From positions 34,464,001 to 34,528,000 of the forward strand of contig NC_091667.1 of assembly GCF_042453785.1 (NCBI RefSeq): a DNA stretch of 64,000 nucleotides, given 5' to 3'. The notes beneath the pieces were generated by a model that ran no database searches, was not told the origin of the DNA, and worked only from the letters and a program-made list of their open reading frames with translations. The position numbers and the translations under genes were made by a program. This document shows, piece after piece, positions 22,216 to 61,586 of the stretch; within the stretch, counting starts at the first letter, position 1, and every line of letters begins with the position of its first letter. This DNA is from Malus domestica. Its lineage: Eukaryota > Streptophyta > Magnoliopsida > Rosales > Rosaceae.

Positions 22216-24411
22216 CTAGTTTTCAGCGACCAGAAAACCCTTGTCCTGCTCCAGCTTCTCCATCGTCGGAGCCTCCAAGCTAATCTCCACATCGATGCTC
22301 CTCCCGCCACTCTTCCCCTGGTACAAATACACCATCCCGTCGAACCGGTTGTTCGACCCGCTTCTCACCCCCTCGGGTTTTCCCCACCCGAAATCTACCT
22401 CATAGACCTGGAACCTCGGCGAGCTCCCCATCGCCACGCAGTTCACTCCCGCGTCCTTGAACTCGAAAATCTTCGGCGAGATCTCCCACTCCGTGTTCCT
22501 CTGATCGATCGCTTTCGCGTTGTGCCCCTCAATCTCCTTTTGGATCATCGATGCGCCGAACTCCGGCGGGTTCGCCGACAGCAATCCGGCGGCCGTGACG
22601 GTGAACACGGCCTGGATTAGGTTCCCGAAGTAGGCGTCGGGCATGGGCGGGTCGACCCGTTTGCGGCAGTCAGCGAAGACGGTGAACACCGTGTAGTCAT
22701 TGGGTTTTAGTTGGCGGGCTTGGGTGACGTGGCGCCAGATGTGGACGGAGAGAGACTGGAATGTGGAGAACGGTTTTGAGCCGTCGGATGGTGGGTTTGC
22801 ATTGACCGTTGACTTGATCTTGTCGATTGCTGCTTCAGAGAATTTGAAGACTCTCTCTCTCAGGTTCGGGTCCTTTTTGCCGTTGGCGGGAACGTCGCCG
22901 TTTGATGGTGGCGGGGAGTGATCGAGCTTCACGCGCCTGTTTCGGGCCTGGGTCCGGTCCAGAAATGGTTTGGTCGAGATGGATTTGGATCCGTTGCAGA
23001 TCTCGGCCCATGAGCTCATGAAGTGCCACGTGGAGGTCCCGTCTAGGATTGCATGGTTGAAGGCGCACCCTATCGCCAGTCCATCTTTCAGCTTGGTCAA
23101 CTGCCAAACCAATGAGAAAAAAGAAAAATTAATCATCGTAAATAGTAATTAAAAATCAGCCAACAAGTGCAATTCTTTTTTGGAGGAAAAAATATAGAGA
23201 GTTTTAACAAAAAGCTCACGGTACTGTTTATTTTAACGAAAAATCATATTTTTATACTAAAAAATCAAACATGCTACTATTCATTTTACCCTTTATTTTG
23301 TCCTTATCGTTAAAACTCAAAGTTTTCAAACATTTTTCATTAGTTTTCCTAAAAATATATGTAATGTTATGAAAATCGAGCTCGTGTCAAGGTAACAAAT
23401 AACGAACACATTGTTCTTACTAATTGATTAATTCTAAACAATTATAACAATTGGATGCTTATTCATCTACAGGCAAGAGACTATAACTCGAATTTCAAAA
23501 AAATGGGCGGACACATTGACATAATCAACCGCCTAACCTAGATAATAGTTTTTTTGCCTCAATAACTGCAAGTATGGAAAGTTGTTTCATTCATATGCGG
23601 GACTATCCTTGCTTGGATCCTTTAAGGGGCAATAAAAACCGTACCAAGACACAATATAATATGATGGGATTGCTACATTATGCTTGGAAAATTTTCTTTT
23701 CAAGTTGTCTCTAATTATATTATGACATGTAATATTCTGTCACTTATTCAGAACATACTAAAAACCTCTTATGATTTTAGATGAGTGAACATTTATTTAT
23801 CTCTCAAAGAAATCAGATATTAAATCGAGACTAACTTTGAAATGAATAAATTTCATGATGCCACATAAAGTAACATGTAAATTTTTATGTCAAATAATAA
23901 ATTTTATTAGATTAGCAATTTCACATGTAATTAGATTTAAGTATTTTTCATGTAGCTTAATTAGTATTAATTAATTAATTACCTGCACTGCTAGGAGTGG
24001 CCTGTGAAGGCCCTCCAAGTTCAAGACCCCATTGTAGGGTATGAAGTCCTTCAAAGCACTGGTGCCTTCCTCAACTGCCAGATCAGCTATACTGATCTCC
24101 TCCGCCGCCGCCTCGGCCACCTCCACACCCTCCATCTCATCCCCATACTCAACCCTAAACACTCCCTCGTCGTCCTTCCCGAGCTTCCCCGCCAGCTGGT
24201 AAAACTCCCCCAGAACCACCTCCAAACCCTCCTTCAGTTTCTTCACCCTTTCCTCGAACTCACCCCCCTTGTAAAAAAGGAGCTTTTGGTTGTAGTAAAA
24301 AGCCAGGTAGGGTAGGTCAAATGTGACTAGTTGACATTTTTGGCTGCCTATCTTCTTGTTGGGCTTCACATGTGTTTTTCCGGTGACTTTCACCTTCGAT
24401 ATATCCGCCAT
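22216..24411 (-). CDS. DCR: BAHD acyltransferase, DCR-like (cutin biosynthesis)
   Basis: Two exons on the minus strand: 24,411-23,983 (start ATG, 143 codons, donor GTAATT) and 23,100-22,216 (acceptor TTTGGCAG, stop TAG), giving 437 residues, a normal BAHD length. The catalytic HXXXD motif is HAILD at ~159-163, and the structural DFGWG motif is at ~379-383. The N-terminal QLVTFDLPYLAFYYNQKLL and the GTSTWHFMSSWAEI stretch after the active site are, from memory, typical of the DCR (DEFECTIVE IN CUTICULAR RIDGES) clade. That clade transfers acyl groups from CoA in the cytosol and is needed to incorporate dihydroxy-C16 acids into cutin. The ~880-bp intron carries a 150-bp MITE. A TATA-like TATAAGTA lies ~105 bp upstream. 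The family is sure; the clade is fairly sure; the substrate is inferred. A duplicate is wrecked to the left. Confidence 0.9.
23200..23349 (-). mobile_element. ~150-bp TA MITE, copy 5, in the DCR-like intron
   Basis: Reverse-oriented member running from GTTTTAACAAAAAGC to ATTAGTTTTCC, with GGTACTGTTTATTTTAACG inside. It lies in the intron of the intact acyltransferase gene, near the acceptor side of exon 2. Confidence 0.8.
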
Positions 24412-26134: not shown

Positions 26135-27420
26135 TCATGTACCATTTTAGGCTCTTTGTTACTAACTTAGACCAACCCATACGCAAAAAAGGTATATGAA
26201 ACCACTAAGAAGTCTTTCATAAATTTGTTGGGGATTGTTGAGATAGATCCAACAATAAAATATGACTATTAATTTGCAACACCTCTATTAGAGCCGTAAC
26301 TAGTGCAGCCTAGTTTTTGGGAGTTTTTCAGTGTGTCGGGACACTCACTTTGTTGGAAGAAAAAAAATCTAATTGATTGTATTATTTTTCTAGAACAAGT
26401 ACGATATTTATTGATTAATGAAATAACACGTACAAAGGATGACAAGATACATAAAATGAGTCTCGATAAAAACCTTACCGGGAATTTCTAATTAATCGTA
26501 TTATTAAACTTAGTATATTGGGTCAACTTCCCATAGACTAAAAATTTTCCGCTAGTTATTATAGTTGTGTGACTAATTATTAATGAATTGTGACAAATTA
26601 ACCAAGTTATGAACTAAGTTGGGTGGATAGTCGATTTTTTGCAAGGGTAGGAGGAGAATGTACCTCGCGCAGAGTTTTACTTCTTGTGTGATTAAAGTGA
26701 GGTGTGAAATAGGCACGCTGTAAATATATATATCAAGTGATGTAATAACACGTAAGTTTATTAATACGTGTTAATTAATAACAAAAATCACAAAGAAATC
26801 ATACACAAAATGAGTGCAGCAGATTTACGTTCAGTGAAATGGAATCAGAAGCTAGGTCAAAGTCTTCATTTACCACACTGTGCATTATAATTAAATCAGA
26901 GTCCGAAGCGATCCCAAATCCCAATGAAATTTCAATAAGATGATTAGTATTTTTATTTTTATTTCTGGGAAATTACCGCGTTAAGATCAAGTAGTTCACT
27001 TCACACTTAGAAATCAGGTTGATGAAGACATGTGCCAGGAATTTATGTTAGGGAGGAGGGTGGTGTTAGTTGGCATTGAATGACCGCCAGCCAGTTCTGC
27101 CCACTCTATTTCAAGAGGAACATAAACGTACCATAATGATAAAAAGGGTCATTTTATGTTGACTTGAAGTCGGTATATCCTTTTTATCACATGATTATGG
27201 ATCATATGACAGAAGTAATCGAGAGAATGAGTTATATTTCCGAATGTATGACGGAATCTCTCTACTTAACACTGAATATATTTTGATGCCAGTATTTATT
27301 GGTTTCTAATGGTCTTCAAACTTGAAAATGACTATGCATGACACCGAGTCAAGACAATAATTTCGAGATGCCGTGCGGTTGCGGGCAAATTAAGGTGTCG
27401 ATATTTCCAACTATATCAAA
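26135..27420. other. Intergenic, nothing recognised
   Basis: AT-rich sequence with only short chance ORFs on both strands. I see no domain, RNA gene or clear element boundary. Confidence 0.5.
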
Positions 27421-36480: not shown

Positions 36481-36522
36481 CAACGCAGGGTACTTCCCTC
36501 AGCTCTCTCTACTCTCGCAGCG

Positions 36523-39188
36523 ATGGCTCCTCCTCGAGGTAATTGAGAAAAATAAGCTTACCCCTCTTTGTAATCATCGTCTGTTTCTTTGTAAATTGTA
36601 TGAAAGTATGCATTTTTATTTGGGTTTTCTGGTATCTGGATGTTTTGATTTCTTTTTCTTCTGTTCCTGCTGAAAATATTGTCGACTTTTGTTCTTGGGT
36701 TAATTTGCTATCGACAAAATCACATGAAATTTGGTTTATTTTCTATGCATGCTGCAAAGAGTGTTGATTTTTGCGTTTGGGTTACTTTGGTTTCGACCAA
36801 ATTGATTAAAATTTCAGCTGTTTACCCTTATGTGTCGATTTTATGGGTACTTTGTGTTGTTTTTACTTTTCATGTTTAAGATTGTTACAAGATTTGGCAG
36901 AAGTCCTTATAAGTTGTTGGGTTTTGTTCAGGTCGTGGTGGTAGTGGTGGATTCAGGGGCGGTAGGGGTGACAGAGGTGGAAGAAGTGGGGGTAGGTCTG
37001 GTGGTGGTAGAGGGTTTGACAGAGGTGGTAGTGGCTTTAAATCCCGTGGGCGTAGTGATCGCGGACGTGGTGATCGCGGAAGAGGCCGTGGGAGAGGAGG
37101 AATGAAGGGTGGTAACAAAGTGGTGGTTGAGCCTCACAGACATGAAGGTGTTTTCATTGGTAAGGGTAAAGAAGATGCTCTTGTTACCAAGAATCTTGTT
37201 CCCGGTGAAGCTGTCTACAATGAGAAGAGGATTTCTGTTCAGGTGGGTTTCAATCATTTGCTAATTTTATTAAAATATCTGCTTTGAATCCGAATAAACC
37301 AAGATTTAAGCGATTTGTTCTTGCAAAATTATCTGTTTAATTGAAGTATCTAGACTAATTACTTGATCTTTATTTTTGTGGTATGTGAATATAATCGATG
37401 GTCACCTTAAAAGTGCATTTTCTTTCTTTCAGAATGAGGATGGAACAAAAGTTGAGTATAGGATTTGGAACCCTTTCCGTTCCAAGTTGGCTGCAGCCAT
37501 TCTTGGTGGTGTTGATAATATATGGATTGTAAGTCTTGATTTCATGTATTCTTGCATTTTGTTTGATGTTCATCGTCTGTCCACAATCGTTTTTAAATCT
37601 TTTATAACCGTCTGTTTAATGTAGAAACCTGGTGCTAAAGTTCTCTACCTCGGGGCTGCTTCTGGAACTACAGTCTCTCATGTGTCTGACATTGTTGGCC
37701 CTGTAAGTGTTCTTTCTGATTCAGTTTCTTCAAGCTGTTTATATTTCTTCTCCGAGAATAGCTTCTTAGAACCACCTATTGTTTTTGTAGACTGGAGTTG
37801 TCTATGCAGTTGAGTTCTCTCATAGAAGTGGCAGAGACTTGGTAAATATGGCTAAGAAGCGCACAAATGTCATACCCATTATTGAAGATGCTAGACATCC
37901 AGCTAAATATCGGATGCTTGTTGGCATGGTTGATGTGATATTCTCTGATGTTGCACAACCTGATCAGGTTTGTTTTTTGCAATTCATGTTTTTGCTAGTA
38001 AAAGAACCTAATTTTTCAAGTCTTTTTCTTATGGGTTATGAAAAGATCAAGGATTTTCAAGGGGATTTGTTTTTACATTTAAAGATTAACTAGTTAACCT
38101 GACCTGTTTTGCTATAGAATTTTGCAATTAGCTGAGCTTGAAATTTTGTGTTAATTGAAAATCGCAAACTATTGGTGTTCATTTTTGTTAGCTTCTCATA
38201 TTTTTTTCGCATATGATGAGATAATACTCGGATTCCCCTTCACGACATCATGGATGATGTGAACTCGAGTTTCTGATGCGTACTTTGTTCTGTATCACAC
38301 TCTGCATTTCTTTTGCTCCATAAATTTTGTTAGTATTTGTTTATGCTTTTTCGTTCTTGCAAGTTCAAACATCTTTTGTTGTACTCGTTCTGATTTTTTG
38401 TTTTCATAAAACTTACATAGTTTGGTTTTTTTCCTTCTTTTGTCTGCTGTGTGGTTTTTCGTGATTGTATTTTTAGAAGTTTTATCCTTTGCAATATATT
38501 GAGCATGTGACGAACAACTCGGACAATTATGGGTGATGCAAAGACCGAGTTTCTGATGCTCCTACACTTCAATATTTGATTTTGTAGTTTTAGTATTTTA
38601 TTTTTCCTAATGATTTCACCTCACGTCACCTCGCCAGCCCTTTCTCCCCTACTCTTTCATTATCTGGCGTTGCTGGTACCCTTAACACCAGTGTTTCTGA
38701 CGGTGTTGGTGTATTTGACAGAAGTCCTTGAAGGCATGGCCGTACTTAGCCTTCAAATGTTAGTTGCTTCAGAATTATGTTCACTCGGTCTAATTATATA
38801 ATGCAGGCTAGGATTGTTGCATTGAATGCATCATATTTTCTGAAAGCTGGAGGCCACTTCGTTATCTCAATCAAGGTTTGTTTCTCGAATTTTGCTAGAC
38901 CGTATAAAACATGAGGAACCTTTTGCTTGGGAAATACCTTTCACTTCGGTTGGAAATTTTCCTTTTGCCGCACGCTTCTTTGTTTTATGAATAAAATCTT
39001 GTTTTCAGGCCAATTGCATTGATTCAACATCACCCGCGGAAGCAGTGTTCCAATCAGAGGTCAAGAAGCTTCAGGAAGAGCAGTTCAAGCCTGCGGAACA
39101 AGTCACTCTTGAACCTTTTGAGCGCGACCATGCTTGCGTGGTTGGTGGCTATCGTATGCCAAAGAAGTCGAAAGCTGGCAACGCCTAG
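36523..39188 (+). CDS. FIB: Fibrillarin (snoRNP rRNA 2'-O-methyltransferase)
   Basis: Seven exons: 36,523-36,538; 36,932-37,242; 37,433-37,528; 37,625-37,702; 37,791-37,967; 38,807-38,875; 39,009-39,188. All junctions are GT-AG and the total is 308 residues. After MAPPR comes a Gly/Arg-rich domain (RGG and GGRG repeats to ~60). The fibrillarin fold follows: [20 protein letters not shown], the AdoMet motif [69 protein letters not shown] and a C-terminal [11 protein letters not shown]. Candidate catalytic Lys, Asp, Lys and His positions are all present. The protein is the nucleolar catalytic subunit of box C/D snoRNPs. Its fifth intron (38,0xx-38,806) carries two box C/D snoRNAs. All parts look intact. 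Confidence 0.97.
38208..38280 (+). ncRNA. Box C/D snoRNA (U60-type candidate), copy 1 in fibrillarin intron 5
   Basis: Terminal stem CGCA/TGCG, box C ATGATGA at 38,213-38,219, box D CTGA at 38,273-38,276, and an internal GATGATG C'-like box at ~38,253. The 73-nt size and ~525-bp distance from the next exon suit an intron-encoded plant snoRNA. Arabidopsis fibrillarin genes are known to host a U60-family snoRNA in the fifth intron, the same position as here. Candidate guide segments are ACTCGGATTCCCC (before D') and AACTCGAGTTT (before D). The rRNA target was not verified. Confidence 0.8.
38502..38562 (+). ncRNA. Box C/D snoRNA, copy 2 in fibrillarin intron 5
   Basis: A 61-nt unit with terminal stem GAGCA/TGCTC, box C GTGACGA at 38,508-38,514 (one change from RTGATGA), box D CTGA at 38,554-38,557, and a C'-like GGTGATG. 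It shares AACTCGGA near the 5' end and GAGTTTCTGATGC at the 3' end with copy 1, 290 bp upstream, but its middle is shorter. It is either a diverged paralogous snoRNA with an altered guide or a decaying duplicate. The 5-bp closing stem argues that it is still processed. Confidence 0.65.
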
Positions 39189-40042
39189 ACATTGTCCGGC
39201 TTCCCGTCCATGATCTGCTTTTATTGGGGAGGAGAAAAAGAACATTCAGTTTACAAAGTTTAAGAATGTAAACGTGACTCTGTCCTTCCTTTGTATATTT
39301 TCTGGTTGCTGGTTAGATTTGTCTTTCGATGTAGTAGTTCTGAACAGTTCAAACGTTGTAGAACGTTGTAGACATATATGTTTTTTTATATAATCGTTTT
39401 ATTTCGTACCTGTGTAAGTAGGCGGATAGAAATTATTTCTATCCGCCGCCACCTAATGTTGCTTTGAGTGTATGTCAAAGCAAAGATTGCAACTGCAGGA
39501 TTTTGCGCCATCGACACTTCGGTTGTTGCTCCGGCTGCATGCTTGTAAAGATACGGGCTACGCTTTCTCATCCTCCTCCTTGATGAACAAGCTCTTTACA
39601 AAAAGATTTTGGATGAAGAACAAACTCTTCAAAACCAAATTGATATTAACAGATAAAAGACAAACCAAATTATATATTTGAAATTCAACAGACTATCTTC
39701 ATTTTGTGCGAATTCAAAAGACAAACCTACTCTAACAAAGCCGAAAAACAAAAATAACAGACAAAAACAAATTCATGTAAAAGTAAATTGAACTGAACCT
39801 ATTTTAATCCTAACTCATTATTTCACTCTCCTGCACACTTAGCTTAAGGTGGTTACATTTTGATATTCACACTTAGCTTAAGGTGGTTACATTTTGATAT
39901 TCGTAAGTCGACAGCCCTTTTATTTTTGTTTGATAAAAGTGAAGAGTGGTAGAATGTGAAACCTACACTCACAATCACAAGGGAAAAAAAAAGGAAAAAA
40001 AAAATGATAAGATAAGGAAATAAAATAACAAGAAAAAGAAAT
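39189..40042. other. Fibrillarin 3' region and intergenic; 35-bp tandem repeat
   Basis: The fibrillarin 3' UTR probably extends to ~39,300-39,400. A perfect direct repeat of ~35 bp (ACACTTAGCTTAAGGTGGTT plus ACATTTTGATATTC) occurs back-to-back at ~39,834-39,902. A small dyad, GGCGGATAGAAAT / ATTTCTATCCGCC, lies at ~39,421-39,447. No gene is found before the tRNA. Confidence 0.6.
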
Positions 40043-40125
40043 GTCAGAAGTGGGATTTGAACCCACGCCCTCGTTAGAGGACCAGAACTTGAGTCTGGCG
40101 CCTTAGACCACTCGGCCATCCTGAC
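40043..40125 (-). tRNA. tRNA-Leu (anticodon CAA)
   Basis: The 83-nt cloverleaf on the minus strand has acceptor stem GTCAGGA/TTCTGAC, D arm GGCCGAGTGGTCTAAGGC (A box), anticodon stem CCAGA/TCTGG with loop CTCAAGT giving anticodon CAA, a long class-II variable arm (TCCTCTAACGAGGGC), and TPsiC arm GTGGGTTCAAATCCCAC (B box). No intron is visible. A T-rich tract (TTTCTTTTTC) follows immediately as the Pol III terminator. The long variable arm and anticodon make the leucine call firm. Confidence 0.95.
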
Positions 40126-40980
40126 AATCTTGATAATTGGACTAAACAAAATTTATTTAATTAAGTTCTGTTTTTCTTTCAATCGAAAGAATTTTTAGAC
40201 TAGCACAACTAAAATAAACCACAACATAACAAGTAAATAACCGTAGAAAAAAAAAAAAACCACCTCCGTATTTTTAAATAAGAGAAGAGTAAAAAAAATA
40301 GTGTGACTAAAATCAATCAGAACGAAACAAGTGATAATCGGAAGATTATTTTCTTCCAATTAAGCTCTTTCTTTTGGTCGAATTCTTCCAAGTAAGTTTT
40401 CGAAATGCTTTTTGTGCAAGTGTTTTGTTCCTTTTAATTTACTTATTTTATTGACCATATGTTCATAGAAGTCCTTTTCATGTAAGTCTTTTTCATTTAT
40501 GGTCAGATTGGTTTTCGCAGTTGGGTTTATAGACTGAGAACCAATAAAACATTTCTCTAATTATCTTTTGGATTTTTCAGTAGGGTAATGTGTCCGTCGC
40601 TTTTTCCTCGTGTTCAAAATTGAAACCCTCTTCTTGTTTCAGAGCAGCTCAATACATCGCATTGTCAAAACAAGCTCTCAATTTCTTTAACTAGGCACTC
40701 GAAATACTTTCTTGTGAAAGTAACGTTCAGAACAACTTTTGTTTACCTCAATTTTGATACATTATTGACGACGGAAAGATAGAAAAACAGAACTTTTAAA
40801 ATTTTATGGGAATTCAGATTAACCACTTGAACATTCAATTGATAGGTTAAAAAAATGAAAAATCTGTACCGATGGCAGGTAGTTTCCTGGCTAGAAAGTT
40901 TGAAAATTCTAACACAAAAAATTACAACTAAGCAGAGAGCTTAATTAGGAGATTTTATGCACTCGGTAGAAAACATGATT
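40126..40980. other. Intergenic, no feature recognised
   Basis: AT-rich spacer between the tRNA gene and the 3' end of the first MATE gene. It contains T-rich stretches and probably that gene's 3' UTR (just left of 40,981). No ORF or element is supported. Confidence 0.5.
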
Positions 40981-43849
40981 TCATACGCTAACAGCAGCTA
41001 TCTCCTCGTCGCCGTAGTCTTGCCCAGCCCACTTCTTCATCCGGTCCGTTGTTTGTTCAACCTGCCACGAAAAGTTACGATTTAGCATAAGCGTTTGTGC
41101 AAGAAGTGTTGTTATTAGAAACACGTCAAACTTTGTATTAAGAATTCAGGTGCTTTTCTAAAAAAACACTTCTACAATCCAGAAGTGTTAGGGAAGCGCT
41201 TTTAAACCCTTACGAAAGCAGTCTCAAAACAAGCACTTGATAGAGAATTTAACTTACCTCCTTGTTCCAGTTGGTTCTGTAAAGTACAATCATAAGCAGC
41301 AAGGTTTGAAGAGCAGTCCCGCATATCATGCCTCCCCAAATTCCCTACAATGGTGAAGAAATTTTGGGACTATGATTGTCGAAGACATTCGAGGAAAGGA
41401 AAAAACCGAGCTAGCCAGGCATCGAATCATATAGTAGTGGAACTGAAACCAAAATGATTTACCTTCACTCCCCATTTTGCTACATAGCCAAGAAGGATAC
41501 CGAGCGGGAGCCCGATAATGTAGTAACAACCCAAGTTTACATAAGCCACCAGTCCCTGCCATCCGCCTCCGATAGCAACACCTGAAGCATGAACCCAGAA
41601 CAAAAAGTTACAAGGGGACGGGGTCAGAGATGGAGTGGAAGTTACGTGGTTATCAAACGAGTCCTAAGTAACTCGATTGTTACCTGAAATAACTGGTTGG
41701 ACGCTATTGAGAAGCATAGTCACTCCGAGAAGAATTGCTAGATTGGAAACTGAATGTTGCAATTCCTCGTTGTTTGTGTACAGGACAGAAAAGTAGTCTT
41801 TGGTTATCAAGATCACAACCATGCAAACGATTCCGATGAGCAGAGACTGACCAACCGTCACGTAGACTGAATATTTAGCTGCTCTTGGACGTGCCAATCC
41901 AAGTTCGTTGGAGACCCGAACACTGAAAACGCGTGAGACACAAATTAAAATCAGGTCTAGAACATCTTTAACTAATGCCTCAAATTGTTTCTTGCGTTAC
42001 AAGATTGCACATATGAATCTTGGGCACTTACCTTATAGCAGCATTGATTCCAATGAACAGCATTGCTTCCAAACCGTTGAAATTTAAGCTGAAACATCAA
42101 TTGGTCGAGTAAACAAACTGAGTAAAGTATCGGAATTCGAGTACAGAAACGAACGAAAATCACTGTAAGAAAAAATGAGGGGGAGTTATGGCCTTACCAA
42201 ATAGCGAGCGAGTCAATAGAAAGTACGGCATTACTAAGGTGGCCTGTAGCAAGGATAAGAGTCATCATATACCAAATCTCCAGGCAAAGCATCACGGCGG
42301 ACTCAAGTGAAAGCCGGACAAACGCCCATATGTCTTTGAACGCCAACCACGAAAACCCTGTCCACCCTTCCTTGCACCATTTCATTATGTAAATATTTTG
42401 AGCAATCACAATTACCCAACCTGTGATGCCAAATGCAATGCCTGCACCATATATACCCCAATCGAACACGTAAATGAAGAGAGAAAGCATTCCAATTTGT
42501 ACAAGAAGCGAGATAAATCCAATCCACGCAAGCACGAGAACTTTGCTTTGAGCCTGAAGGAACTTCTGGGCAGGGAAGTTGAAGGCAAGGGAGAACAACT
42601 GCGGTATGCAATATATGGTGAATGTTCCAGCAAGATTAGCCACGTCATCATCCTGCCCGAGAAGCTTCAAAATCGGGGCGGAGAAGATATAGATTGGCGT
42701 GAGGATAACACAGCTGGTGAACAGAATGATCCATGATCTTTGCATGTAAACGCCGAGCATGTTAACGTGTCCGGCTCCGAAAGCTTGGCCACAAAGCGTC
42801 TCTAACGCACTCCCCATGCCAAGCTACAAATTTTTGTACATAATATGCATTAGCTCCTTTAGTTGAATTTAATCATGCTGTGTGAACATATTTTCATTTT
42901 GCAATTACATTTGATGGATGACGAAGCTTTTTATCAGAGTACTGATTTTTACACCCTCGTTTTCTCGTTTTGCACTTCTGTTTTTGTTTGTGTCTCTCGA
43001 GCAGTAATAATAATAGTAAAAAACAAAAGTGGGCTTTTACCATTTTGTGCAAATTCATTTTGGGCTAACTACATTTACACACTTAAAGTTTGAAATGGTT
43101 TTCAAATGGACTATTATGAGGTTTCAATTTTTTGAAATGGTATCCCAAAGTTTTGTCATTTTATTAATTTACATATTTTGTCTATTTAAATCAATGTGGG
43201 AAAGGACGTAATTTTGACTTTTTACCTCTTTCTTTTCTTGTTTGAGGGAAATGAACAAGATTAACCCTTTAATTAAATTAAAATAGTAAATAATAATTTA
43301 ATTAGATTTTATAATTATTTAGATATAAGCCATTGAATTAGATTTTTTTAAAGAAACTGATTTATCCAGTTCTGTGTCATATATCTTCCTCTCGATCTCA
43401 ATATCACGCACACAATTTTCATCTTTTCCTAGATTTTCTCAAGTATGAAACAAAGTATGAAATATCCAAATTTAAACAAGAAACACTGATAAAATATATA
43501 TAGATATTTGGTAAAAAAATAAAAAATATATATAGATATATCTGAATAACTTTGAGCAGTGGTACCTAACACTTAGAAAAGAAGAAAAGCAATGCAGAAG
43601 AATATAAAAGAAACAAAGTATGAAATATCCAAATTTAAACAAGATACACCGATAAAATATATATAGATATTTGGTAATATATATATATATATATATATAT
43701 TAAATAACTTTGAGCAGTGGTACCTAACACTTAAGAAAAGAAGAAAAGCAATGCAAAAGAATATAAAAGCAAAAAATACAAAGTAAAATTAAACACAAAA
43801 AAACGCAAAGTTAGAAATCTGAATCAGAAACACTACAAATATAAATGTG

Positions 43850-48236: not shown

Positions 48237-51200
48237 TCAGCTACATATCTCGTCAGTTATTGTTTCTTTGCTTCTCCACTTCTTTATGCGCTTTGTTGTT
48301 TGCTCCACCTGCATTATAAACAAGAATTTCAATCACGAATCCGAATTATTTTAGTCGGTTAGGGTAGTGTGTTAGTCTCGTTGCACTCTGGTTTGTATCC
48401 ACAACAACAACAACAACAACAACAAAGCCTTTTCCCACTAAGTGGGGTTGGCTATATGAATCCTAGAACGCCATTGCGCTCGGTTTTGTGTCATGCCCTC
48501 CGTTAGATCCAAGTACTCTAAGTCTTTTCTTAGAGTCTCTTCCAAAGTTTTCCTAGGTCTTCCTCTACCCCTTCGGCCCTGAACCTCTGTCCCGTAGTCA
48601 CATCTTCGAACCGGAGCGTCAGTCGGCCTTCTTTGCACATGTCCAAATCACCAGGGCCGATTTTCTCTCATCTTTCCTACAATTTCGGCTACTCCTACTT
48701 TACCTCGGATATCCTCATTCCCAATCTTATCCTTTCTCGTGTGCCCACACATCCCACGAAGCATCCTCATCTCCGCTACACCCATTTTGTGTACGTGTTG
48801 ATGCTTCACCACCCAACATTCTCTGCCATACAACATCGCTGGCCTTATTGCCGTCCTATAAAATTTTCCCTTGAGCTTCAGTGGCCTACGACGGTCACAC
48901 AACACGCCGGATGCACTCTTTCCATCCAGCTCGTATTCTATGGTTGAGATCTCCATCTAATTCTCCGTTCTCTTGCAAGATAGATCCTAGGTAACGAAAA
49001 CGGTCGCTTTTTTGTGATCTTCGCTAGATTGCTCCGGTCATTAGTGTGGATAAGTATATAAATGGATAGAGATAGGAAAGCAAACACAAGATGTACGTGG
49101 TTCACCCAGATTGGCTACGCCCACGGAATAGAAGAGTTCTCATTAATTGTGAAGGGTTTACACAAGTACATAGGTTCAAGCTCTCCTTTAGTGAGTACGA
49201 GTGAATGATTTAGTACAAATGACATTAGGAAATATTGTGGGATAATGATCTCGTAATCACGAAACTTCTAAGTATCGGAGTGTGGTGTCGTCTTGACTTG
49301 CCTTATCTGTCTCATAGGTAGATGTGGCATCTTCTCTGGAAGTACTCTTCCTCCATCCAGGGGTGGTATCTTTAACTGGTGGAGATGCACAAGGTAATGT
49401 ATCAATTTCACTTGAAGCTTACTTGTAGTTTCAGGCTTGGTCAAGCGCGATACAAACCATGTAGTAGGAGTCCCCCAAGTCGCCGAGCTAGGGGGTCTGC
49501 TGAAAGAGGTGACAGACAAGGTAAGCAATCAGAGCTCCGACTGATTGTTCACCTTCTCCCCATCTTGCAGCAGCATGAAGGATAAAGAGAAGAAAAATGA
49601 GAAGAGATGATATGAGATACTTTTGCTTTTGAAGAAGTAACTTTCCACAGGCTTATTCTTGAACTGAGCTGGAGGGTTTTCTGGTTTCCTCCAGAGTATA
49701 AGGCCGACTGAAGAATTTGAGGGTCAAAACAAGTCCATCAAATCTAGAGTACGTTCCACCCTGCTGATATGGGATACTTTTGCTTTTGACAGAGTAATGG
49801 ATGTATCGGCACGTGTGCTGTTACGCTTGTCTCCACATGCTTCCTTGTATCCTTCGCACTTGCCCTATCTGTTCCTCAAGCAGATGCGGAATCTTCCCTG
49901 GAAACATAAGATGATGAAGATGAGTACTCGAGAGCAATGCCAGGTAGGTAATCAGGTAAGGGATTCCAGGCGGTCAGTTCCTGGCTGGAAGCTTGATTCC
50001 AAGTACTGACTGATTGCTCTCTTTCTCCTTGTCTTGCAGGTAAAAACAAGGCCAAAAGAAAAAACAGGGAAAAAGCATGATATGGGATACTCTTGCTTTT
50101 AACCCTGATGATATGAGATATTCTTGCTCTAGTATAGCTTGTTTGCAGAGGTATTATCGGGGGGAAAGAAAGCTGAATATTTCGAAAGGCTTTGTTGGGA
50201 GTGCCCTCTCAGATATGATGAAGGGTTGAGCATTTTTGCAGGTCTGCCTGTCCGTTGGGGATGGAGGTCGACATATATAGGAGTCTCCCTAACAACAAGT
50301 AGTAATGCTATTCCTTTACCCTGCTTGGTCATAGCACGGTAGTGGGAGCTGCCAGTTTCACATGTTTTAACTCTGTCAGAGCACTTTGAAAAAGTGGTCT
50401 GTGGTATCTGGCTCTCGAGATTCGGAGAACGATGCCTCTTCGATTTTTGAGAAAGCAATCATGCTGGGGGTCTGACTCTCGAGATTCGGAGAGCAGTGTC
50501 TCTTCGATTTTTGAGGAAGTAATCATGTTGGGAGTCTGGCTCTCGAGATTCGGAAGGCGATGCCTCTTCGATTTTGGAGCAAGCAATCTTGTTGGGAGTG
50601 TTGTCTCGAATGTGAGTAAAGGTTGGACATGTTTGCTAGTCTACCTTGCCACGAAGCACAAAGGTTGACACACAGGGACTTTCCAATTATCCAGCAATGG
50701 TACTGTTCCTTTACCCTCTCTTCGATTTTGAGAAAGTAGTCATGTTGGGAGTCTGGCTCTCGAGATTCGGAAGACGGTGCCTCTTCGATTTTGGAGCAAG
50801 CAATCTTGTTGGGACTGTTTTCTCGAATGTGAGTAAAGGTTGGGCATGTTTGCTAGTCTACCTTGCCACGAAGCACAGAGGTTGACACACAGGGACTTTC
50901 CAATTATCCAGCAGTGGTACTGTTCCTTTACCCTTGTGGGTAATAATATGGTAGCTAGACCTTCAAAATTTATGTGTCTAAACTTTGTTAGTGCTGTTTC
51001 TTTGCTATTCTTTTACCTTTCTTGGTCAGAGCGATGTAGTGGGAGCTGCAAGCTTCACGTGCTCAACTTTGGCAGAGAACTTTGGCAAAGTGATCTGTGG
51101 TACCCATGAGTTATTGTTGCGTGTGGGAAGTGGGTGATTGAACAGTAAGATTCATGTGCTTTCTACTTCACCAGAAGTCTTCGACAAAATGCCCATAATT

Positions 51201-54200
51201 TCTGCAAAGCTGAGTGTGCGTGTGACAGGTGCTGACAAGGCTAGAAAAGTAGGTGCCTCTTCGATTTCTGAGATCGGCCCTCGTGGTCTCTGAGCAGCCC
51301 AGCTTTTGAGAAAGCGAGCGCCTCTTCGATTGATTCGGAGAACGGTGCCTCACCGATTTTTGAGAAAGCAATCATGCTGGGGGTCTGGCTCTCGAGATTC
51401 GGGGAGCAGTGTCTCTTCGATTTTTGAGAAAGTAATCATGTTGGGAGAGTGGCTCTCGAGATTCGGAGGGTGGTGCCTCTTCGATTTTGGAGCAAGCAAT
51501 CTTGTTGGGAGTGTTTTCTCGAATGTGAGTAAAGGTTGGGCATGTTTGCTAGTCTACCTTGCCACGAAGCACAGAGGTTGACACACAGGGACTTTCCAAT
51601 TATCCAGCAATGGTACTGTTCCTTTACCCGCTCTTCGATTTTTAAGAAAGTAGTCATGTTAGGAGTCTGGCTCTTTAGATTCGGAGGACGGTGCCTCTTC
51701 GATTTTGGAGCAAGCAATCTTATTGGGAGTGTTTTCTCGAATGTGAGTAAAGGTTGGGCATGTTTGCTAGTCTACCTTGCCACGAAGCACAGAGGTTGAC
51801 ATACATGGACTTTCCAATTATCCAGCAGTGGTACTGTTCCTTTACCCTTGTGGGTAATAATATGGTAGCTAGACCTTCAAAATTTATGGGTCTAAACTTT
51901 GTTAGTGCTGTTTCTTTGCTATTCTTTTACCCTTCTTGGTCAGAGCGATGTAGTGGGAGCTGCAAGCTTCACGTGCTCAACTTTGGCAGAGAACTTTGGC
52001 AAAGTTATCTGTGGTACCCATGAGCTATTGTTGCGTGTGGGAAGTGGGTGATTGAACAGTAAGATTCATGTGTTTTCTACTTCCCCAGAAGTCTTTGACA
52101 GAATGCCCATAATTTCCGCAAAGCTGAGTGTGCGTGTGACAGGTGCTGACAAGGCTGGAAAAGTAGGTGCCTCTTCGATTTCTGAGATCGGCCCTCGTGG
52201 TCTCTAGGGAGCCCAGCTTTTGAGAAAGCGAGCGCCTCTTCGATTTCTGAGATCGGCCTTCGTGGTCTTTGAGCAGCCCAACTTTTGAGAAAGCAAACGG
52301 CTCTTCGATTTCTGAGATCAACCCTCGTGATCTCTAAGCAGCCCAACTTTTGAGAAAGCAAACGCCTCTTCGATTTCTGAGCAGGCGCCTCTTTGATTTC
52401 TGAAGCTCCGTCGAGTGCAGATTTTTATAGAGGCTGGCATTAAGTTCCAAAGCACACTTGAATCTCCACCAGTAGAAGCTTCATTCTTGCACTTCTAATA
52501 TCTTGATTTGTCCGACCACTTCTCTCTTCAACACCTTTGAAAATGTCTGGCCCCTCCGACCGTCGTTTTGACTTGAACCTTGTTGAAGAGGCAGCCCCGC
52601 CTTCTCCAGACAACATATGGCGCCCATCCTTCGTCTCCCCAACTGGTCCTCTTACTGTTGGGGATTCCGTGATGAAGAATGATATGACCGCTGCAGTGGT
52701 GGCCAGGAACCTTCTCACTCCCAAAGATAACAGACTACTTTCCAAACGGTCTGATGAGTTAGCTGTTAAGGATTCGCTGGCTCTCAGTGTTCAGTGTGCA
52801 GGTTCTGTGTCTAATATGGCCCAACGCCTATTTGCTCGAACCCGCCAAGTTGAATCATTGGCGGCTGAAGTGATGAGTCTCAAACAGGAGATTAGAGGGC
52901 TCAAGCATGAGAATAAACAGTTGCACCGGCTCGCACATGACTATGCTACAAACATGAAGAGGAAGCTTGACCAGATGAAGGAAACTGATGGTCAGGTTTT
53001 ACTTGATCATCAGAGATTTGTGGGTTTGTTCCAAAGGCATTTATTGCCTTCGTCTTCTGGGGCTGTACCGCGTAATGAAGCTCCAAATGATCAACCTCTG
53101 ATGCCTCATCCTCCTAGGGTTCTGTCCAGTACTGAGGCTCCAAATGATCCCCCTCCGGTGCCTTCTCTTTCTGGGGCTCTACCGACTGCTGAGACTTCTC
53201 CTAAGCAACCTTTGTGAAGGCTCCCTCTTGTGTGTTTATTTTGACTCATGTATATGTACATATTTGTAGCTTATCGGGGATATCAATAAATAAGCTTTCC
53301 TTCATTTCAACGTATTGTGTTAAATACACCAAAGCCTTCTTCGCTAAGTTCTTTGAATTTTCTTTTGTTGAAGCTTGTATGTTGAAGCTTTCTGAGTGGA
53401 GCATGTAGGTTGGGGTAGTATTCCCTTAATTTCCCGAGTGAGGAAAACTTCTTGGTTGGAGACTTGGAAAATCCAAGTCACTGAGTGGGATCGGCTATAT
53501 GAATCTTAGAACGCCATTGTGCTCGATCCTGTGTCATGTCCTTCGTTAGATCCAAGTACTCTAAGTCTTTTCTTAGAGTCTCTTCCAAAGTTTTCCTAGG
53601 TCTTCCTCTACCCCTTCGGCCCTGAACCTCTGTCCCATAGTCGCATCTTCTAATCGGAGCGTCAGTAGGCCTTCTTTGCACATGTCCAAACCACCGTAAC
53701 CGATTTTCTCTCATCTTTCCTTCAATTTCGGCTACTCCTACTTTACCCCGGATATCCTCATTCCTAATCTTATCCTTTCTCGTGTGCCCACACATCCAAC
53801 GAAGCATCCTCATCTCTGCTACACCCATTTTGTGTACGTGTTGATGTTTCACCGCCCAACATTCTGTGCCATACAGCATCGCCGGCCTTATTGCCGTCCT
53901 ATAAAATTTTCCCTTGAGCTTCAGTGGCATACGGCGGTCACACAACACGCCGGATGCACTCTTCCACTTCATCCATCCAGCTTGTATTCTATGGTTGAGA
54001 TCTCCATCTAATTCTCCGTTCTTTTGCAAGATAGATCCTAGGTAACGAAAACGGTCGCTCTTTGGTATTTCTTGATCTCCGATCCTCACCCCTAACTCGT
54101 TTTGGCCTCCATTTGCACTGAACTTGCACTCCATATATTCTGTCTTTGATCGGCTTAGGCGAAGACCTTTAGATTCCAACACTTCTCTCCAAAGGTTAAG

Positions 54201-57200
54201 CTTTGCATTTACCCCTTCCTGAGTTTCATCTATCAACACTATATCGTCTGCGAAAAGCATACACCAAGGAATATCATCTTGAATATGTCCTGTTAACTCA
54301 TCCATTACCAACGCAAAAAGGTAAGGACTTAAGGATGAGCCTTGATGTAATCCTACAGTTATGGGAAAGCTTTCGGTTTGTCCTTCATGAGTTCTTACGG
54401 CAGTCTTTGCTCCTTCATACATATCCTTTATAGCTTGGATATATGCTACTCGTACTCCTTTCTTCTCTAAAATCCTCCAAAGAATGTCTCTTGGGACCCT
54501 ATCATACGCTTTTTCCAAATCTATAAAGACCATGTGTAAATCCTTTTTCCCATCTCTATATCTTTCCATCAATCTTCGTAAGAGATAGATTGCCTCCATG
54601 GTTGAGCGCCCTGGCATGAACCCGAATTGGTTGTCCGAAACCCGTGTCTCTTGCCTCAATCTATGCTCAATGACTCTCTCCCAGAGCTTCATTGTATGAC
54701 TCATTAGCTTAATACCCCTATAGTTCATGCAATTTTGTACGTCGCCCTTATTCTTGTAGATAGGCACCAAAGTGCTCGTTCGCCACTCATTTGGCATCTT
54801 CTTCGTTTTCAAAATCCTATTGAAAAGGTCAGTGAGCCATGTTATACCTGTCTCTCCCAAAACTTTCCACACTTCGATTGGTATATCGTCTGGGCCTATT
54901 GCTTTTCTATGCTTCATCTTCTTCAAAGCTACAACCACTTCTTCCTTCCGGATTCGACGATAAAAGGAGTAGTTTCTACACTCTTCTGAGTTACTCAACT
55001 CCCCTAAAGAAGCACTCCTTTCATGTCCTTCATTGAAAAGATTATGAAAATAACCTCTCCATCTGTCTTTAACCGCCGTTGCAGGTAAATTAGAGTAGAG
55101 TAGAAGAGAATATCGCTATATACTGATGATTACCTCTCTGTCCCAGTTGGTTCTACAAGTCAGAATCAGCAAGAAGAAGATCTGAAGAGCGTTTCCACTC
55201 ATCATCCCACCCCAAAGTCCCTATGCATCACATAAAATCTCGATTCACTAAAAACGAAAGATTAAAGTAATTAAACTGAAATGAAAATTAATAGATAGGG
55301 GTAGGATTGTTTATTACCACAGCTCCCAGATCTGCTTTGAAGCCAAGAAAGATTGCTAATGGGAGCCCAACCAAATAATAACTACCAAAATTTATATAAG
55401 CCACCATCACTTGCCATCCACCTCCAATAGCAACTCCTACAAAAAAATTGATCACCAATTAGGGCTACAAACTAAGTTAAATAAGGAGACTGATGAGCTC
55501 ATTAGGGATACTAATTGGAAGGTTAAAACTTATTGAAGCAATTAATACCTGTTAATACTTGTGTAGCACTGGTAAGAAGCATCGTTACACCAAGAAGGTA
55601 AACTAAACGAGAAACGGCGAGTTGCATATCTCCACTGCTGGTGAAAATCATGGCAAAGTAGTCTCTGCTTACGAAGATAGCAACCATGGCTAAAGACCCA
55701 ATGACGAGAGCTAGCAAGACTGCAACACAGACGGAGTATTTGGCTGCTCTTGGACGCCCCTTTCCAAGTTCGTTCGAGACTCGTGTGCTATGTGCAGATG
55801 GCAGACCATTAACAATGTTATACTACTTAGCAACACCAGAAAAATGGAATAGCACATTACTTGACACATAAAATAACAGAAGTATTTACCTTACAGCAGC
55901 ACTTATTCCAAGCAACAACATAATTTCCCAATTCTGAAAATTCATGCTGAAAGAAAAAGAAAAATGAAGCAATAAGCACCACCTCGTCACTTATTTAAGT
56001 CGTTTTCAAGGGATTATAATAAATTGTCTGCAAAGGATTCTATCCGCAGCTTAGTAGAAATTGTAATAATCTTACCATATAGAAAAGGAACCAACAGAAA
56101 TGACTGCATTTGGAAGCAGACCGGCAAGAATGCTTATACTCATCGAATACCATAAATCTAGGCAAACCATCATACAAGAGGCAAGTGACAGCTTAGCAAA
56201 ATCCCAAATCTCTCGAAACGCCAACCATGAAAATCCAGTCCACTCCTCTTTGCAGCAGACCATAACATAACCAACTTGACCAATTGCAACTCCCCAGTTT
56301 GTGATGTCATAAGCTACAGCCGCACCAGTTGTTCCCAAGCCAAACACATTGATGAAGAGATGAAGCAACCCGGTTTGTATGATTAGAGCCGCGAATGCAA
56401 TCAACGTGATCACGAGCACCTTGCTCTGGGCCTGGAGGAACCTCTGAGTGGGCAAATTGATGGCATAGGAGAACATTTGAGGGATTATCTTTAGACTGTA
56501 TACTCCAGCAGGATCAGCTATGCCATGTTCCTGGCCTAAAAATTTTAGGATCGGAGCGGCGAAAATAAAAACTGGCGAAAGGATGATACAGGCGATGAAT
56601 AACACAATCCATGAGCGCTGCATATAGATTCCTAGCTGCCCTACTTGGCCTGCTCCATATGCTTGCCCACAAAGGGTTCCCAATGCAGTTGCCATACCTA
56701 GCTACATATATAATATGTACAACAGTTATTAGAATGTGGGCTTGCCTTCTGGCAATGTAATGCTTCTGATTATATTTGACATAAGTATTTATGAGTCATA
56801 CAAGCACTCTTTGAAGGTGTTTTTTTAGAAAGCACTTGAAAATGCTTTTCCAAGAAGCACAGTTGGAATTTTTAATAAACATTTCGTGGTGTTACTACTT
56901 ACAGTACTTACAATAAAATGTTTTATGAGTAGAAGTACTTATAAAAATATTACACCATTACCAAATTCCAGAGATATATACTATACAGAAACAAGGTAAA
57001 TACGCAGCAATAGAACCGATTACAAACTTTTAATCGAAAACATAACAGACCGACACCAAACTGACAGTAAAAGGTTTATATACGGCTTAATCTGTGTAAT
57101 GTGGTTACCAGGAAACCAAAAGGGATGTTGCAAATGACACCGAGGGAAAGGGAGACGGCAGAGAGCTCGACATCTCCAAGATGACCGACGAAAACGGTGG

Positions 57201-59148: not shown

Positions 59149-61586
59149 CTAATCCTCTATACTTTCAGTTCCATTCTCAGTTTTGATGCCTTGCCCGCCC
59201 CACTTCCGGACGCGCGTTGATGCTTGCTCCACCTGCGATTTGGTTTTGATATGAACAAACAATGAAATGCAAAAACCGAAGTTGAAGTTTTGAAACAAAC
59301 TATGGATTACCTCTTTGTTCCAGTTGGTTTTGTAAAGTATAATTAGCAGAAGTAGGGTTTGAAGAACAGTTCCACATATCATGCCCACCCAGAATCCCTG
59401 CAACATGAGTCGCATAGCTCATCACAAACACTTTATATATATAGGCTTGTTGAAAGGAAAAAAACCATTTAATTACCTTGACTCCCCAGTTTGCAACATG
59501 GCAAAGAAGGTATCCAAAAGGAAGACCAAAAATGTAGTAACAACCCAAGTTTATGTAGGCAACCATTGTTTGCCATCCACATCCAACTGCAACACCTTCA
59601 AGAACAAGCAAGTCAACATGGGATTAAAATATGCTCGCGTGCGCACGTACGAATACACATCTATTATCGATTTGATGTGCATGTTCGATTTTTGTTATTA
59701 TGTATATATATGACATGCATAATGCCATGGACGTAAAATTGATACCTGAGATTACTAGTTGGACACTGTTGAGCACCATAGTTATACCAAGAAGATATGC
59801 CAACTTAGAAACCGCTTGTTGCAACTCCTTGTCACTTGTGAAAATCATGGCGAAGTCATCTTTAGTTATCAAAATAATAGTCATGAAAAGAATTCCAATT
59901 AGGAGAGACTGAAGTACTGTCACATAAATAGAGTATTTTGTTGCCCTAGGACGTCCTGACCCAAGCTCATTGGAAACACGAACACTGCATAAAAAAATAA
60001 AGATATTATAAACACTACAATAATCAATGAGAAGTGCAAAATAAATATCAGAGACCTACTAGTCTAATGCATTACCTTATTGCAATATAGATTCCAACAA
60101 ACAACATTGCCTCCCACCCGTTGATGTTCATGCTGTGGAGACACAAAAGAGAAAGAATGCTATTAGAAATCAAAATCTATCATGTAACATAAAAAGGATA
60201 ACTTACCTGCCATATATGAGCATTGTCACGTATATTAACTTTTACAGACAACAGTGCATTATTACCAAGTAACATCTATTTATAAAAAGGATATTACTTA
60301 CCAAATAGAAAGGGAACCAAGAGCTATAACTGCGTTAGGAAGACGGCCTGTGAGAATGAGTATACTCATCATGTACCAAATCTCAAGGCAGAGCATGGCC
60401 GCAGACGCAAGAGAAAGTCTCACAAACGCCCACATCTCATTCAATGCCATCCATGAAAATCCAGTCCAACCCTCTTTGCACCAACCCATAATATACACAA
60501 CCTGTGCAATTGCAATCGCCCATCTTGTGATGTTAAATGACACAGCTGCCCCCAATGTGCCCCAATTAAACACATACATGAAGAGCGCTATCATTCCAAT
60601 GTGTATGACCAGGGCCAACATTGCAATCCATGCCAGCATCTTCACCTTCCTCTGAGCCTGGAGGAACTTCTGAGCTGGGAAATTTATGGCAAGTGAGAAC
60701 AATTGGGGGATTATTTGGAGTGTGAATTTTCCTGCTAGATTCGCTATGTCGTCTTCTTGGCCTAGCAACTTTAAAATTGGTGCCGCGAAGATGTAAATCG
60801 GCAAAATGAAGAGGGTGGTTACAAATAGGATTATCCAGGATCGTTGCAGGTAAATCCCAAGCATATGAACTTGTCCAGCGCCAAATGCTTGTCCACACAA
60901 GGTCTCTAGAGCACTCGCCATCCCAAGCTAAAAGTTCATTTCGTACAAAAAAGATTTTGTATTTAACCATTGATAATTTGGCAACATATAACATATACTA
61001 TGTAGGGTTATTAGGACAATTTCAATAATATCACATATATACAGTATAGTACTAATTTCGTTGTTAGATTTTCGGCATTGGGACGTTTCAATGCGTCAAT
61101 ATGTTCTTGCCAAATATACAGTATAGTACTATCTTGACGTATATAAAGTCGTACCATATATAACATAAATCTACATAATTATTAGGGCAATAGTTCTACG
61201 AAAATTTAACAACATAACATGTCAAGTAACTTTGCGTGCATGAGAGAAGAGGAATTACGGGGAACAAGATTAAATACCATCAGTCCATCAGTGAATGTGG
61301 AAATCACGGCTAAAGAAATAGAGATAGCGGAGAGCTGGATAGTTCCTAGATGACCGGCAAAGAGCAGGATGACTGCGTTAGTCCCGTACATACATATGAT
61401 GGTGATCACTGCCGAACCGGCCATTTGCCACAACTTCACCGTCTCTATCCAAAACATACTTCGGAGCGCATCAAAGCTCTTCACCTGCGCATAGTCTTCG
61501 TTCCCGCCTACATAAAGAGGAGGTTTATTGCTCAACTCAGTGGCGCCGGCAGCAGCTGTGTGAAGCGGCGGCTCCTGCTCCTCCAT
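59149..61586 (-). CDS. MATE efflux transporter (DETOXIFICATION, DTX27/29-like), gene 3
   Basis: Exons on the minus strand: 61,586-61,278; 60,927-60,302; 60,132-60,076; 59,984-59,746; 59,595-59,477; 59,397-59,311; 59,232-59,149. All are GT-AG; the total is 506 residues. Motifs: [128 protein letters not shown] and [11 protein letters not shown]. It is the most compact of the three and, by the ALETLCGQ region, closer to gene 1 than to gene 2. Twelve membrane segments are expected from the family. A TATATA box lies ~70 bp upstream. The substrate is unknown. Confidence 0.95.

Follow-up and report, generated by a model that had tools for sequence, protein, structure and literature searches.

Why does the intron of a fibrillarin gene house two U60-type box C/D snoRNA units, and what has become of the one whose guide is altered? 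The gene in question lies in a 64-kb stretch of the Malus genome (contig C7), the whole of which was analysed and is here called the window. The answer that we favour, to which we give a probability of roughly 0.8, is that intron 5 carries a tandem U60 pair, the second unit of which was disarmed by a 13-nt deletion and is now redundant and guide-less.

The host gene has an open CDS of 927 nt, and all of its introns are GT/AG. Its protein matches both the Pfam family Fibrillarin (PF01269, E = 1.1e-110) and a fibrillarin chain in the PDB (7mq8_SC, E = 4.2e-132).

36523..39188, + strand: fibrillarin host gene, a 7-exon CDS encoding 308 aa (spliced open frame)
36523-36538, 36932-37242, 37433-37528, 37625-37702, 37791-37967, 38807-38875 and 39009-39188, + strand: exons of the fibrillarin CDS
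37968-38806, + strand: fibrillarin intron 5 (GT..AG), which houses both C/D units

When the window was scanned against 4227 Rfam families, two units in this intron, both on the + strand, exceeded the gathering score of RF00339 (snoR60; 40 bits): unit 1 with 82.8 bits (E = 8.5e-17 for the 64-kb window) and unit 2 with 45.0 bits (E = 2.6e-6 on the same scale). The only other match at the Rfam gathering threshold anywhere in the window is a tRNA. The original prediction of two box C/D units in fibrillarin intron 5, closed by the stems CGCA/TGCG and GAGCA/TGCTC, is thereby borne out; the lengths of 73 and 61 nt that it assigned to them become 74 and 60 nt by the Rfam bounds.

38207-38280, + strand: unit 1, an intact snoR60/U60 box C/D snoRNA gene (by its RF00339 score and motif positions)
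38208-38211 with 38277-38280, + strand: terminal stem of unit 1; 38213-38219, box C; 38273-38276, box D
38228..38240, + strand: D' guide of unit 1, TCGGATTCCCCTT, making 13 bp with AAGGGGAATCCGA in L004 LSU rRNA
38241-38244, + strand: D' box of unit 1, CACG, degenerate and placed from the published site
38501-38560, + strand: unit 2, a guide-deleted U60 paralogue (by its RF00339 score; C1 unit 2 minus the deletion)
38501-38505 with 38557-38561, + strand: terminal stem of unit 2; 38507-38513, box C variant GTGACGA; 38533-38539, C'-like box GTGATGC; 38553-38556, box D
38521..38524, + strand: junction of the 13-nt deletion in unit 2, from the alignment to C1 unit 2, its exact spot being ambiguous within a GA repeat

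The boxes and the stem of unit 1 are complete (ATGATGA, CTGA, CGCA/TGCG). Unit 2 has a perfect box D and terminal stem, and its box C, GTGACGA, is one base away from RTGATGA; the same variant occurs in a full-length, constrained homologue, unit 2 of the C1 gene described below. The two units had been said to share both of their ends, and this holds for GAGTTTCTGATGC, which is present in both; AACTCGGA is found in unit 2 only, unit 1 reading ATACTCGGA there, so that the string in common is ACTCGGA. A possible third relic at 38029-38051, 83% similar to unit 2 over 23 nt, was dropped: neither Rfam (E up to 1, positions 36500-40500) nor a model built from eight such units (whole window) finds a unit there.

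If unit 1 is a working U60, its guide would be expected to pair with LSU rRNA at the published site. The guide forms 13 bp, without G-U, with the L004 LSU, and 12, 12 and 11 bp with those of L003, L002 and L001; in all four, D'+5 falls on a G. These targets are eukaryotic rRNA in metagenome contigs, L002-L004 being eukaryotic LSU by Rfam and L001 by pattern and reading only. The scan for rRNA targets gave 14 loci, of which 13 were set aside as non-rRNA by the context of the match alone. Among shuffled guides, 12 bp was reached in 1 of 60 and 13 bp in none; in a rerun with rDNA of the plant's own genome added, the corresponding counts were 2 and 0 of 40. By its sequence unit 1 is therefore a normal U60, the pairing site of which fits Arabidopsis 25S G2125.

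According to the accessible part of PMC8053127, the Arabidopsis U60 target is 25S G2125, and U60.1F resides in FIB1 and U60.2F in FIB2; this agrees with the original statement that Arabidopsis fibrillarin genes carry a single U60 each. The same portion reports that methylation of G2125 drops in fib1-1, which is without U60.1F, and does not drop in fib2-1, which still makes U60.2F, although fib1-1 lowers methylation generally and its result at G2125 is confounded to that extent. A2127 appears in the same table as G2125 and fits the spacing in AAGG(G)GA (PMC8053127, same part). A study of nucleomorphs, in its accessible part, gives U60.1F a D' guide at G2114 (PMC6461891), which we take to be the U60 site in another numbering.

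An exact search of the plant's own genome for the U60 target site with its context returned 0 places. One long own-genome 25S copy was reached, on contig C16; it is decayed and reads AAAGGGAATCCGA, with one mismatch to the unit 1 guide. This decayed 25S/5.8S rDNA copy (L043) corresponds to C16:33014970-33017939, and no 18S match was found in the 9 kb fetched around it. Two further observations came with these scans. The eukaryotic LSU rRNA gene of L003 contains a group I intron (L003:5392-5807) that starts little over 100 bases past the U60 target site, and its contig is filed as a Chloroflexota MAG. A scan of a viral collection for the core of the U60 guide gave four loci.

Three of the eight units in the fibrillarin introns of this genome form a duplex of up to 13 bp with the U60 site, namely unit 1 on C7 (the window) and both units on C1. 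Unit 2 of the window has no guide to this site, its longest duplex there being 5 bp, and neither do any of the four units on contigs C3 and C11, where the longest is 6 bp. Judged by its sequence, unit 2 is a U60 by descent and not a functional U60.

The search of the plant's own genome for snoR60 took in 651 Mb on 19 contigs, and since 61 of 88,500 first-look candidates were scored, its counts are lower bounds. At least four snoR60 units exceed the threshold, two in the window and two on C1. Those on C1 are both full length (77.4 and 74.8 bits), start 335 nt apart and sit in intron 5 of a duplicate fibrillarin gene, the protein of which is identical to that of the window gene in 304 of 313 aligned columns, stop included (dS 0.18-0.20, dN 0.006 for the gene pair). 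Unit 2 of the window matches its C1 counterpart at all 60 aligned bases, apart from one gap of 13 nt. The missing bases fall between two GA dinucleotides and comprise the guide and the D' region, and the differing middle and altered guide that had been noted in unit 2 are explained by this deletion relative to the full-length C1 copy.

The remainder of the intron allows the conservation of the units to be gauged. Unit 1 of the window matches C1 unit 1 at 71 of 73 bases, and the flanking intron of C1 and C7 matches at 507 of 612 positions (105 differ), with 147 gap columns. At the mismatch rate of the flank, the probability of no difference in 60 bases is 1.2e-5, and that of two or fewer in 73 is 1.4e-4. 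Because both units are far below the flank mismatch rate, both were constrained after the gene duplication, unit 2 including its box C variant. As read from one assembly, unit 2 is a formerly full-length, constrained U60 that ended with a single small deletion, and at least three intact U60 units are left in the genome.

The same comparison bears on how long ago this happened. By a hand estimate, neutral evolution of unit 2 on the C7 branch ever since the duplication should have produced about 6 substitutions, and the probability of none would be near 0.003; neutral decay confined to roughly the later half of that span is compatible with the data. The lack of any substitution therefore means that the deletion is rather recent, or that what remains of unit 2 is still constrained, or that a short gene conversion renewed it. 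Selection on the guide-less form and a short gene-conversion tract could each, then, account for zero changes in 60 bases.

Four fibrillarin loci were found in the genome (C1, C7, C3 and C11), and every one of them has two units in the intron. The original prediction of two U60-type units, one with a changed guide, is upheld; a second unit is not peculiar to this gene. The C3 intron gives two sub-threshold snoR60 hits (26.1 and 24.9 bits) at a loose Rfam cut-off; the C11 intron gives no snoR60 hit at that cut-off, and its two like units were recognised by reading the sequence. All four of these units have a box C off the consensus (GTGATGT or GTGGTGT). Box D and the terminal stem are kept in three and lost in C11 unit 2, and the core of the internal stem is kept in all four. 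Between C3 and C11, unit 1 differs at 8 of 69 positions and unit 2 at 8 of 73, against 130 of 854 in the flank within the compared part of intron 5. On these sequences the divergence of the units seems not far below that of the flank, i.e., not far from neutral, and because of this and of the missing box D in C11 unit 2, the guide-less units of C3 and C11 look like decaying relics. The C3 gene itself is probably a pseudogene, since by tblastn it seems to be without exon 4. The model built from the eight units necessarily finds every one of them again, and it gives one weak extra match in the window (15.8 bits, E = 0.06, 27134-27197).

Because each of the four loci has two units, and because the C1 and C7 introns align over most of their length, the U60 pair predates the C1/C7 duplication. 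Outside the units, no homology between the introns of C1/C7 and those of C3/C11 was detected, at least 12 of 100 shuffles reaching the real score in each of the 12 segment comparisons. Units are equally alike within loci and across loci, which fits either one tandem duplication or two, for C1/C7 and for C3/C11. The accessible parts of PMC3033827 and PMC3694884 describe Malus chromosomes 3 and 11 as homeologues and chromosomes 1, 2 and 7 as standing in more complex relations, and date the genome duplication of Malus to 30-45 million years. We infer that the contig numbers in C1/C7 and C3/C11 are chromosome numbers.

The history that we propose for the window is as follows. Unit 1 would direct 2'-O-methylation of the G in 25S rRNA that corresponds to Arabidopsis G2125. 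Unit 2, once a full-length U60 that carried the same guide, lost this guide and the D' region to the deletion in this gene copy and kept the boxes, the terminal stem and the internal stem. Unit 2 would now at most be processed to an orphan snoRNP that does no guiding at G2125, and its loss would be tolerated because the intact U60 units, at least three in number, buffer it. The proposal draws on homology, the deletion, the lost complementarity, the intact units and the past constraint on unit 2, all of which are read from sequence; expression, methylation and tolerance through redundancy are its presumptive parts. The suggestion that unit 2 may have lost its function fits, in that a deletion removed the guide to the known site.

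A different explanation for the persistence of the guide-less unit is that it has been retained as a cis element, bound in the pre-mRNA by C/D core proteins, fibrillarin included, and tuning how intron 5 is spliced, in the manner of SNORD86 in NOP56. As a cis-acting C/D sensor, it would titrate or report core proteins in fibrillarin pre-mRNA and feed back on fibrillarin, as a plant counterpart of SNORD86. We consider the element improbable, and its role as a sensor equally so, although the setting is suggestive: the host encodes the C/D methyltransferase itself, unit 2 is located in intron 5 of this C/D core protein gene, and two C/D units occupy the same intron at all four fibrillarin loci. 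SNORD86 also sets a precedent, being an orphan C/D snoRNA and a sensor of NOP56 in cis (accessible part of PMC11028025). Furthermore, unit 2 keeps its box D, its terminal stem and a 7-bp internal stem, with no substitution relative to C1.

38516..38551, + strand: internal stem of unit 2, with arms AACTCGG (38516-38522) and CCGAGTT (38545-38551), from the fold and from pair counts over eight units

This internal stem is part of the predicted best fold of unit 2; the like pairing in unit 1 (ACTCGG 38226-38231 with TCGAGT 38265-38270) is absent from the predicted best fold of that unit. Over the eight units, pair counts lean towards both the terminal and the internal stem (ACUCGG/CCGAGU), in rows that are related and from which the structure itself was drawn: 89.5% of cells are paired versus 82.6% when shuffled (1 of 500 as high), and the covariation score is 0.253 versus 0.137 (0 of 500 as high). 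Two pairs have changed on both sides in each of the two stems, and one such double change (G-C to A-U) is common to the four C3/C11 units. Other measures stay within the shuffles, both-side-changed pairs (4) being matched in 155 of 500 and pair types (6) in 391 of 500. The box D side of the units looks, on this modelled pairing, more structural than guide, which fits the finding that complementarity to rRNA does not exceed that of shuffles for any box D guide scanned, namely those of C7 unit 1, of unit 2 (identical in C1 and C7), of C3 units 1 and 2 and of C11 unit 1.

What speaks against a cis role, besides the structure measures that do not exceed the shuffles, is that the past constraint on unit 2 is already explained by its full-length C1 counterpart, and that the guide-less units of C3 and C11 have the look of decaying relics. 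This is for the most part ordinary decay of a gene, and the chance that the guide-less copy has a regulatory effect on its host is small.

It is very unlikely that the gap is an artefact of assembly or haplotype and that unit 2 is an ordinary full-length U60. The gap was seen in a single assembly, without reads; however, a small deletion leaves just such a single clean gap, which here falls between two GA dinucleotides of sequences that are otherwise identical, and Tandem Repeats Finder lists nothing at the gap. Least probable of all is the new target that had been proposed for unit 2, whether recognised through the altered middle or through the box D guide. A snoRNP could form, since box D, a C'-like box and a box C close to consensus are kept. 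The box D guide, however, the bases of which also make up the internal stem, pairs over 8 bp at best with the available rRNA (which is without own 18S, intact own 25S and snRNAs), no better than shuffled guides. The candidate D' guide before CGGA reaches 9 bp including one G-U in the L004 LSU (a figure without shuffle comparison); it was dropped, as no more than 6 bases are free between box C and the candidate D' box and its match extends 3 bases into box C.

Elsewhere in the window, the following features were recorded.

40041-40126, - strand: tRNA-Leu (anticodon CAA), located some 0.85 kb beyond the stop codon of fibrillarin on its downstream side; aligned to the Rfam model, it shows an insertion
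39834-39902: 34-bp sequence duplicated exactly and in tandem, in the interval that separates fibrillarin from the tRNA
53478-54998, - strand: reverse transcriptase frame of 506 aa (Pfam RVT_1, E = 1.6e-36), LINE-like by reading
50407-52381: several tandem arrays with units of 64-65 and 217-218 bp, sharing variants of a TCTTCGATTT...GAGAAAGCAA core
42194-42817, 56072-56695 and 60298-60921, - strand: three MatE transporter frames of 207 aa each, likely a local gene cluster
22216-24411, - strand: Transferase-family gene (Pfam PF02458), in two exon-like pieces

The locus shows how a single clean event, the 13-nt deletion, left a guide snoRNA as a C/D unit without a guide, with an intact neighbour and a full-length homologue in the same genome. 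It thus offers a natural test of what a guide-less C/D snoRNA can still do and of how far U60 copies are redundant, and it places the tandem U60 pair earlier than the duplication of the host gene. Tandem U60 pairs were not seen described among the papers listed on U60 and snoRNAs, apple and Malus included, or in the accessible parts of PMC8053127, PMC8351944, PMC6461891 and PMC5122169 (the last without the term U60), a search of mostly open papers that says little about print.

Three known systems invite comparison. The closest are the snoR60 genes U60.1F and U60.2F in the introns of Arabidopsis FIB1 and FIB2, which belong to the same family (RF00339) and the same type of host gene, and the site of which fits that of unit 1; in contrast to Arabidopsis, there are here two units per intron at four loci, the guide of window unit 2 is lost, and several units have a non-consensus box C. 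Human SNORD86, too, is a C/D unit with no known target, and its host gene, NOP56, encodes a C/D core protein (accessible part of PMC11028025). This likeness is one of gene position and architecture, with no claim of homology, and a cis effect, reported for SNORD86, would be hypothetical here. Finally, snoRNA pseudogenes and orphan C/D snoRNAs, the former of which have been reported in plants too (same part of PMC11028025), resemble unit 2, which is a copy of a genuine snoRNA that has lost its guide and has a box C off consensus. Unlike the decayed C11 unit 2, the second unit of the window retains its box D and both its terminal and its internal stem.
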